Shown here piece by piece: positions 5,602 through 13,203 of a stretch of 58,131 nt of DNA. Under the pieces are notes generated by a model. It was not told the DNA's origin. It did no database searches and saw only the letters and a list, made by a program, of their open reading frames with translations. The first letter of the stretch is position 1. Each line of letters begins with the position of its first letter. The position numbers and the translations under genes were made by a program. This DNA is from a virus. The stretch spans positions 1 to 58,131 of IMG/VR virus record IMGVR_UViG_3300042090_001925. The stretch is one strand, 5' to 3'.

Positions 5602-5900
5602 TGGCGAAGAATAGCGCACCGCAGGACCCACTCGAAGCTGGCGCACCCGGCGTCGGCCACAACGTCAACGGCGTCGACGGTTCCCACCTGCGCGCCTTCA
5701 TTGAGCGCATCGAGCGTCTCGAAGAAGAGAAGAAGGCGATCGCCGACGATGTGAAGGACGTCTATGCCGAGGCCAAGGGAAACGGCTTCGACACGAAAGT
5801 CATACGCCGCATCGTCAAGCTGCGGAAGCAAGACCGCGACAAGCGGCGCGAAGAAGAGGAGATACTCGACATCTACCTCGCCGCCCTCGGGATGCTGTGA
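5601..5900 (+). CDS. gapR: GapR-like nucleoid protein (DUF2312)
   Basis: GapR proteins of alphaproteobacteria bind overtwisted DNA ahead of replication forks and stimulate type II topoisomerases. The 99-residue product carries the family signature almost intact: [46 protein letters not shown], and [20 protein letters not shown]. The GTG at 5601 overlaps the previous stop. Phage versions may help replication or alter host chromosome structure; that role is inferred. The gene is strong evidence for an alphaproteobacterial host. Confidence 0.92.
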
Positions 5901-11053: not shown

Positions 11054-11092
11054 TCCGCTGCGACCGAATCTGACGCTAAGGAGCAAAGCAAA

Positions 11093-11578
11093 ATGGAAAT
11101 CCGCGATTACGATCCTTCGCAAGGCATGGCGTTCCAGGGTGATGTGTCGATCATCCCCATCCCGGCGGACATCAAGATCAACTGCAACGACGAAGTCTCG
11201 CCCGTAGCCGGTCGACTCATCCTCCAGGAAGGTGAGGTGACCGGACATCACCACGCAATCGCGCTCGCCGAACGCCCGGCGCCGAGCGAACTCGACGAGT
11301 CGAACCTCGTCGTCGAGCGTCTGATTTCCGACGCCCTGGCGAACAAAATCGCCATCCCGACCGCGCGCCTTTTCCGCGATCAGGGCATCGTCGACGAGAT
11401 GTTTCGCCGCGGCATCCTCATCCGCGCCGATCTCAGCGTCGGAGTGTTGATCGTCGAAGTTGGTGCGATGTGTCTGCTTCATGAAGAACACGATGGCATT
11501 CGCATTCCGCCTGGCGCTTATCTGATTGGCCGACAGGTCGAGAGCGCTGGCGCCGAAGAGCGCCGCGTCGTTGACTGA
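11093..11578 (+). CDS. Conserved hypothetical partner of the DUF6745-like protein
   Basis: ATG at 11093 has AAGGAG upstream. The 161-residue product contains a GEVTGHHHAIAL block near residue 45 and a C-terminal HEEHDGIRIPPGAYLIG followed by RQVESAGAEERRVVD. From memory this protein is often encoded directly before DUF6745-type genes in bacteria and phages, forming a two-gene module of unknown function. The His-rich motif suggests a metal site in a small beta-barrel. Function unknown. Confidence 0.75.
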   Translation: MEIRDYDPSQGMAFQGDVSIIPIPADIKINCNDEVSPVAGRLILQEGEVTGHHHAIALAERPAPSELDESNLVVERLISDALANKIAIPTARLFRDQGIVDEMFRRGILIRADLSVGVLIVEVGAMCLLHEEHDGIRIPPGAYLIGRQVESAGAEERRVVD

Positions 11579-11610
11579 CCGCAGCGCACAGCCCCATCGG
11601 AGAGTTCGAA

Positions 11611-13203
11611 ATGATCACATCGCTTACCGCCGATCAGCAGGCGAGATTCCCTGAGTTTGTGCAAAAGTGGATCGCGATCGGGCTTTCCACGAAGCCTGCC
11701 GATCGCCAGTGCGCAGAAAAAGCCATTGCGGGTCTGTATCGGCTCGCCAAACTCAAAAAGCCTCGCGTGATCTGGCTACCGTGTCCGATCAGCGCGGCAT
11801 TGAGTGCTGTCGTCTATGCGCAGATCACCGCGCATAGACGAATCGCAAAAAATAAAACCGTCCGCTCGGCCGTCGGCTCGGCCGTCGGCTCGGCCGTCCG
11901 CTCGGCCGTCCGCTCGGCCGTCGACTCGGCCGTCGACTCGGCCGTCGACTCGGCCGTCGACTCGGCCGTCCGCTCGGCCGTCGGCTCGGCCGTCCGCTCG
12001 GCCGTCAACTCGGCCGTCGGCTCGGCCGTCGGCTCGGCCGTCCGCTCGGCCGTCGACTCGGCCGTCGACTCGGCCGTCTACTCGGTCGTCGGCTCGGCCG
12101 TCGGCTCGGCCGTCCGCTCGGCCGTCGACTCGGCCGTCGGCTCGGCCGTCGACTCGGCCGTCGACTCGGCCGTCGACTCGGCCGTCGGCTCGGCCGTCCG
12201 CTCGGCCGTCGGCTCGGCCGTCGACTCGGCCGTCTACTCGGCCGTCGGCTCGGCCCTCGACCCGGCCGTCGGCTCGGCCGTCGACTCGGCCATCCGCTCG
12301 GCCATCCGCTTGGCCGTCAACTCGGCCGTCAACTCGGCCGTCGACTCGGCCGTCGACTCGGCCGTCGGCTCGGCCGTCTCGGCCGTCTACTCGGCCGTCG
12401 GCTCGGCCGTCGACTCGGCCGTCAACTCGGCCGTCGACTCGGCCGTCGGCTCGGCCGTCGACTCGGCCGTCGGCTCGGCCGTCGACTCGGCCGTCTACTC
12501 GGCCGTCGGCTCGGTCGTCGACTCGGCCGTCTACTCGGCCGTCTACTCGGTCATCGACTCGGCCGGCTACGCCTTCTTCGGCGGATCAATTTGGAATGCT
12601 GGATATTGCGCTTGGGCTGACTATTTCAACGAAGTCTGTGCAATCGCGATTGACCGCAACTTCCTCGAAATGACGGAGAGCGCAGGGTTCTACTGGACGC
12701 TCGGTGACGTGTGCTTTGCTTCCGAGCGTCCCGCGCAGATCCATCTTGATCAAGCCGGCAGGCTGCATTGCGATAGTGCGCCGGCCATCGCTTATCCCGG
12801 AACAGGATGGGGCCTTTACGCCTGGCACGGCTACCGCATTCCCGATGACCACGCCTGGATCATCACTGACAAGGCCAAGATCACCGCCGAGGCGATCATG
12901 GCCGAGCCGAACGCCGAGCTGCGCCGCGTCATGTGCGAGATTACGGCGTTCGAGCCGATCCGCAAGCTCGCGAAGATCGTCGGCGAGGATCGCGACGGGA
13001 ACGGCCATCCCCGCCGGCTGCTGACTGCGATGGTCAAGGACGAGACGCTGCGCATCGTCGAGGTCGTCAACGGCTCGCTGGAGCCTGACGGAACGCGGCG
13101 CAAGTTCCTACTCGGCGCAATGCCCGGAAAGACGCCGCATGAAGCGATTGCAGCGAGCTACGGGATCAGCCCGGCGCGCTATCGCGAAGCTGTTCGCACA
13201 TAA
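11611..13203 (+). CDS. DUF6745-like protein with about 58 tetrapeptide repeats
   Basis: The 530-residue protein has a DUF6745-like N-terminus (LTADQQARFPEFVQKWIAIG, ADRQCAEKAIAGLYRLA, IWLPCPISAALSA) and C-terminus (FGGSIWNAGYCAWADYFNEV, WGLYAWHGYRIPD, ITAFEPIRKLA). Between them, residues about 83-317 are a run of S-A-V-x units, where x is almost only Arg, Gly, Asp, Asn or Tyr. Family members often have a short serine/valine repeat here; this one is very long. It follows the HHH protein by 32 bases with GGAGAG upstream. Function unknown; the fold could be a repetitive beta or helical rod. Confidence 0.8.
   Translation: MITSLTADQQARFPEFVQKWIAIGLSTKPADRQCAEKAIAGLYRLAKLKKPRVIWLPCPISAALSAVVYAQITAHRRIAKNKTVRSAVGSAVGSAVRSAVRSAVDSAVDSAVDSAVDSAVRSAVGSAVRSAVNSAVGSAVGSAVRSAVDSAVDSAVYSVVGSAVGSAVRSAVDSAVGSAVDSAVDSAVDSAVGSAVRSAVGSAVDSAVYSAVGSALDPAVGSAVDSAIRSAIRLAVNSAVNSAVDSAVDSAVGSAVSAVYSAVGSAVDSAVNSAVDSAVGSAVDSAVGSAVDSAVYSAVGSVVDSAVYSAVYSVIDSAGYAFFGGSIWNAGYCAWADYFNEVCAIAIDRNFLEMTESAGFYWTLGDVCFASERPAQIHLDQAGRLHCDSAPAIAYPGTGWGLYAWHGYRIPDDHAWIITDKAKITAEAIMAEPNAELRRVMCEITAFEPIRKLAKIVGEDRDGNGHPRRLLTAMVKDETLRIVEVVNGSLEPDGTRRKFLLGAMPGKTPHEAIAASYGISPARYREAVRT
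11858..12564 (+). repeat. 12-bp tandem coding repeat (TCGGCCGTCnnC), about 58 units
   Basis: Each unit is GCC GTC nnC TCG. The variable codon is nearly always CGC, GGC, GAC, AAC or TAC, while the Ser, Ala and Val codons are almost invariant. A few units are irregular (VVG, LDP, AIR, and one unit that has lost its variable codon and the following Ser near 12378). No stop codons arise in two of the other frames, which explains long shadow frames here. The array likely expands and contracts by slippage or recombination. Confidence 0.95.

Follow-up and report, generated by a model that had tools for sequence, protein, structure and literature searches.

What might a phage gain from a long run of tetrapeptide repeats, inserted in the middle of a protein and differing from one unit to the next at a single residue? 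The question is raised by a gene from a metagenomic virus, for which the window analysed here is the entire IMG/VR record IMGVR_UViG_3300042090_001925 (58,131 bases). The initial annotation described the gene product as a DUF6745-like protein with an exceptional run of about 58 SAVx units, x being encoded by a single variable NRC codon, and proposed a rod or a ligand-binding surface that changes by recombination. The locus would be best explained as a two-gene phage cassette, consisting of a small β-rich partner and a DUF6745 protein whose two end domains are parted by a hypervariable tetrapeptide array (Table 1). The partner gene and the precedent of mycobacteriophage Tweety gp54, a protein with a similar array, are additions to the initial annotation.

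Table 1. Coordinates of the cassette and of its parts in the window.
Feature	Position	Strand	Description	Basis
Partner-gene ribosome site	11078-11083	+	AAGGAG	
Partner gene	11093..11578	+	161 aa, QGDVxI...GExTGHxH...HxEH...RQRE...VxD family, predicted β-rich	
Array-gene upstream motif	11599-11604	+	GGAGAG	
Array gene	11611..13203	+	530 aa: N-domain, tetrapeptide array, DUF6745	translation, Pfam, relatives
N-terminal helical domain	11611..11853	+	residues 1-81, motif ...YRLAxLxxPxVIWLxCP/SPxxAAL...	alignment
Array	11866..12561	+	residues 86-317, 58 SAVx units, 12 bp TCG GCC GTC NRC	
Short unit without x	12370..12378	+	9 bp, in frame	
DUF6745 domain PF20530	12658..13191	+	residues 350-527	

The membership of the array protein in the DUF6745 family is borne out by the match to PF20530, with an E-value of 6e-33 and a score of 114.3 bits against a gathering threshold of 27 (Pfam). 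In the AlphaFold2 model, the N-terminal domain (residues 1-70) is predicted with a pLDDT of 85-92 and the DUF6745 domain with a pLDDT of mostly 80-92. The structure prediction that had been proposed for the repeats, run with the same program, yields a low-confidence helix only. A Foldseek search with the model of the array protein gave no significant match and no known fold, and a sequence search of solved structures returned low-complexity matches only. Several other candidates, e.g., adhesin matches in NCBIfam, Pfam DUF826 together with a PHROG tape-measure family, and a PADLOC endonuclease, were discarded, as each of them lies on the low-complexity array. Elsewhere in the window, a stretch of 107 bp (5685-5791) shares 77-81% identity with Ochrobactrum phage POI1126 and Rhizobium phage RHph_N34, and represents the sole near DNA match to known phages in the first 25 kb.

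Examined unit by unit, the array corresponds closely to its first description. Tandem Repeats Finder (TRF) reports 58.7 copies of a 12-bp unit at 11865-12565, and the separate count of the units confirms some 58 SAVx repeats with a single NRC codon for x. The scaffold codons are almost constant (TCG in 56/58, GCC in 55/57 and GTC in 54/57), the exceptions being single changes to P, L, V and I, and the x codons (GAC 20, GGC 17, CGC 9, TAC 6, AAC 4) all end in C. Variation is confined to x on a near-invariant scaffold, in keeping with the idea of a string of one-position variants. The wobble bases show zero variation throughout the array, for which log10 P is about -61 under independent draws from the codon usage of the genome itself. 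With respect to the order of the x residues, which was announced as aperiodic and is indeed indistinguishable from random, the longest repeated word comprises 5 units (4.9 in shuffles), the repeated 4-unit words number 4 (4.6 in shuffles) and the equal neighbours 13 (13.9 in shuffles). This order depends on the assembly of a metagenomic record, although ordinary reads could resolve the array because its longest repeated word spans only about 60-70 bp. The array RNA folds strongly (z -6.2), as is usual for GC-rich repeats containing CGGCCG.

Relatives were collected by a search with the DUF6745 domain, which gave 5 close virus loci, and by a profile search, which gave 80 virus loci; further relatives were added from phage records, plasmids and two sampled bacterial genomes. 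In nearly all virus members, the array occupies one and the same position between the N-domain and DUF6745, and the sequence of its 12-bp unit varies from lineage to lineage. Depending on the relative, the scaffold corresponds to SAVx, [GD]AVx, [AD]ATx, SATx, QATx, [GD]QLx, SQLx, [AED]QVx, [DA]SLx, [DA]SVx or [DA]GLx, or to a [DA]A[RL] scaffold of period 3. The latter characterizes a subgroup of 9-bp units (L082-L084, L089-L093, L096) in which the wobble base is equally invariant. The longest arrays reach 63, 73 and 94 units, and many contigs end within the array, as expected where assemblers fail on repeats, so that their unit counts are minima. Accordingly, the length of the window array loses the exceptional character first attributed to it, long arrays being the rule in the phage branch. 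Members devoid of any array include gp174 of Microcystis phage LMM01 and plasmid copies in Mycolicibacterium and Streptomyces. The same cassette also occurs on plasmids 3 and 2 of Nocardia farcinica NCTC11134 (L117 and L118), where one copy is frameshifted in both the partner and the array gene and the other reads through, possibly as a matter of assembly or sequencing.

The residues admitted at the variable position are kept diverse within a restricted palette of Arg, Gly, Asp/Glu, Tyr/Trp, His and Asn, from which Lys, Phe and Cys are almost absent. Counted over 48 arrays, the palette comprises R 418, G 317, D 272, Y 102, W 97 and H 55, with K 1, C 1 and F 0; Tyr and Trp thus total 199 against no Phe at all, and the aromatic residue is Trp where the codon ends in G and Tyr where it ends in C. 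The array gene has helicase, exonuclease, DNA polymerase, methyltransferase and primase genes for neighbours, and the cassette is located between the DNA polymerase and the methyltransferase/primase genes. Both the palette, rich in Arg, Tyr/Trp, Gly and Asp, and the location in the replication module would suit a multivalent low-complexity polymer, in which Arg and Tyr/Trp would serve as stickers and Gly/Ser/Ala/Asp as spacers, and the strength with which it condenses, or binds nucleic acid or a host protein, during replication would depend on array length. The low confidence of the array structure predicted by AlphaFold2 and the wide range of array lengths, from 7 to 94 units, are consistent with such a polymer. 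However, the strict period of 4 (or 3), together with the conservation of V/L/T at one position, speaks for a regular structure, and Arg is favoured over Lys by GC-rich codons anyway. This explanation is considered unlikely.

The second component of the cassette is a small and conserved gene. In a profile search, a relative of the partner gene adjoins the array gene on the same strand, either upstream or downstream, in 40 of the 41 complete loci, and the sole locus without it ends 175 bases beyond the array gene. It was found in all 14 virus records searched whole. Among 399 Pseudomonadota genomes, the 3 partner copies all stand beside a DUF6745 gene, with none elsewhere; a fourth and weak DUF6745 match in the same genomes (G117) has no partner. 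The partner is thus an obligate neighbour of the DUF6745 array gene. Its alignment displays invariant residues, among them QGD, E, the H of GHxH, the H of HxEH, and a C-terminal E...D, and the AlphaFold2 model is β-rich and confident, with a mean pLDDT of 86.5. The protein matches PHROG 27831, annotated as of unknown function, and has no match in Pfam or NCBIfam; neither a sequence search of solved structures nor a Foldseek comparison of the model with the PDB returned anything significant. One partner gene (L032:1393-2367) harbours an in-frame HNH endonuclease insert (PF13392, E-value of 2e-14), which sits inside the conserved partner domain and parts its two halves.

Two genes that are obligately adjacent, in whichever order but on one strand, and that are patchily distributed over phages, plasmids and genomes also evoke a toxin-antitoxin pair or a comparable two-component module; the DUF6745 protein would then be neutralised by the partner, and the array would serve as the specificity element. 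Searches of Pfam, NCBIfam and PADLOC revealed no toxin-like domain, however, and the turnover of the phage arrays would be unusual for modules of this type, which makes this explanation rather improbable.

The distribution of changes among codon positions bears directly on the forces acting upon the array. In 47 clean arrays totalling 1,426 units, departures from the commonest base amount to 21.4, 32.3 and 0.7% at positions 1, 2 and 3 of the variable codons, compared with 0.2, 0.4 and 0.6% at those of the scaffold codons. A general mutational hotspot at the variable codon does not fit these values, since its third base stays as still as the scaffold. Variation at positions 1 and 2 but not at position 3 points instead to selection on the residue, in arrays that are homogenised by rapid turnover with exchange within units. 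The codon phase shows that the array frame is translated and that the x residue matters. In units with two variable codons, the association between both is weak or absent in most arrays tested and strong in a few (L050, L069, L087).

A neutral, microsatellite-like expansion in a permissive and functionless linker would account for the fast changes in array length and for the existence of arrayless members. Under drift, the wobble base should nevertheless vary no less than positions 1 and 2, the reverse of what is found in the 47 arrays, and one palette recurs on unrelated scaffolds. Judged from these codon statistics, neutral expansion is for the most part refuted and is retained as quite an improbable explanation.

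The comparison of array length and order among relatives, put forward in the initial annotation as a check of change by recombination, could be performed on natural variants. Four metagenome contigs (L001-L004) display 99.9-100% identity over 4,136 bp downstream of arrays that differ in the number and order of their units. Since the first differences between these arrays lie no farther than 60 bp from the unique flank, single reads suffice to demonstrate the difference. L001 and L002 have a 14-unit block in common and differ by a deletion or a duplication, and the L001 array contains an internal 7-unit repeat. Similarly, prophage relatives from M. abscessus with 99.5% identical flanks possess 18 and 45 units. 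Such differences beside 4.1-kb flanks of 99.9-100% identity indicate that array turnover is very fast and exclude equal, fixed arrays, and the conservation of 14-unit blocks in their order supports recombination as the mode of change. As a counter-example, L006 and L014, which come from different metagenomes, have an identical stretch including 19 units, so that arrays can also be stable. The changes arise as near-identical 12-bp units are gained, lost and reshuffled, the natural cause being unequal recombination or slippage.

The limitation of variation to one or two bases per unit also recalls a targeted mutagenesis of the x codon, similar to that performed by diversity-generating retroelements. 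This is very improbable, since no reverse transcriptase (PF00078) was found in the record, which may be incomplete, the changes show no specificity for adenine, pyrimidines being avoided at position 2, the spectra (NRC, NGG, NNC) differ by lineage, and relatives differ by blocks kept in order. The rod in the sense of a structural element or surface adhesin of the virion, suggested by the long repetitive stretch between two domains, is hardly credible because the cassette stands in the replication module, remote from the head and baseplate genes at about 33.9-40 kb, and the analogous gene of Tweety lies in the right arm and is non-structural (PMC9262239). With respect to the other part of the original proposal, the array may form a surface that binds a ligand or a target.

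According to the preferred explanation, the array of the cassette would act as a tuner, its length and residue string setting the engagement of a fast-changing target by the two end domains. The most likely target would be a host- or prophage-encoded defence, neutralised by the cassette early in infection. The precedent would be Tweety gp54, whose counter-defence is redirected from one prophage defence system to another when the number of units in its similar array changes. We place this array-tuned counter-defence module slightly short of an even chance. For the DUF6745 cassette, counter-defence rests on analogy because the end domains of Tweety gp54 are unrelated and Tweety lacks a partner: hmmsearch with filters off, Pfam, PHROGs and hhalign disclosed no match of these end domains to DUF6745 or its N-domain, and no partner gene was found beside Tweety gp54. 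The window protein as a homologue of Tweety gp54 was accordingly rejected, the end domains having no detectable relation. Moreover, the core function need not be counter-defence, since members of the family are also carried by plasmids and chromosomes, some of them without array. The literature search retrieved no experiment on any DUF6745 cassette.

More tentatively, the wobble-locked array of 9- or 12-bp units may constitute an evolvable device widely used by phages and common to unrelated proteins, such as the DUF6745 cassette, Tweety gp54 and others, in which recombination would write new strings of residues and thereby redirect the protein against host defences; in the DUF6745 version, the obligate partner would cooperate with it. 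Phage proteins with a variable tetrapeptide array are already known, from Tweety; their occurrence in the DUF6745 family, their breadth and the partner gene are new, as far as the literature searched shows. Until now, Tweety gp54 stood alone, as the curious case of a counter-defence protein whose activity is tuned, by an obscure mechanism, through the number of its repeats. An array of this kind is now found in a large family to which Tweety gp54 is unrelated and which is devoid of any functional assignment, with members in many phages, prophages and plasmids. Its obligate partner, selection at the residue level and natural variants with identical flanks make the tuning question testable in several systems, and DUF6745 gains its first functional hypothesis.

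Among known systems, pentapeptide-repeat proteins similarly consist of very short repeats with a central aliphatic residue, but the period of the window family is 4 (or 3), not 5, and no Pfam pentapeptide match was obtained. The VR2 of bbp36 from Bordetella phage BMP-1 consists of in-frame repeats in a phage gene, the number of which differs between isolates, but is built from a 24-bp element, as compared by the description in the paper only (PMC2884959). With respect to DUF6745 (PF20530), the C-terminal domain of the window protein is a clear member, and the Pfam match spans this domain only, leaving the array and the partner outside.

The closest resemblance is offered by Tweety gp54 (PHROG 3416), whose array, in which the third codon bases are constant and the first and second ones vary, was described in 2007 (PMC2884959). 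Escape mutants of Tweety facing the defences of the Phrann or MichelleMyBell prophages possess more or fewer units, a change by which the counter-defence is tuned (PMC9262239, PMC8549241), evidence taken here from two reviews by one group. The anatomy of the array was confirmed, with 48 AAxx units encoded by the codons GCC GCA NRG WRC. AAxx arrays of the Tweety codon type also occur in metagenomic virus proteins (L150, L160) whose remaining parts look unlike both Tweety gp54 and DUF6745. In Mycobacterium phage Ardmore gp46 (L123), a Tweety-type array is apparently read out of frame almost from its start, which leads to an unrelated C-terminus. Tweety gp54 differs from the window protein by its AAxx instead of SAVx scaffold, and counter-defence is shown for Tweety alone. 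Both proteins nevertheless have in-frame 12-bp units between N- and C-terminal domains, with invariant wobble bases and variable codon positions 1 and 2, and the x of Tweety gp54, taken from G, W, R, E, S and Y, is a further point of resemblance. In both, the length and order of the array differ between near-identical phages: 36 relatives of Tweety gp54 with near-identical N-domains contain from about 7 to 33 units, compared to 48 in Tweety, and gene length varies among isolates whose end domains are identical.
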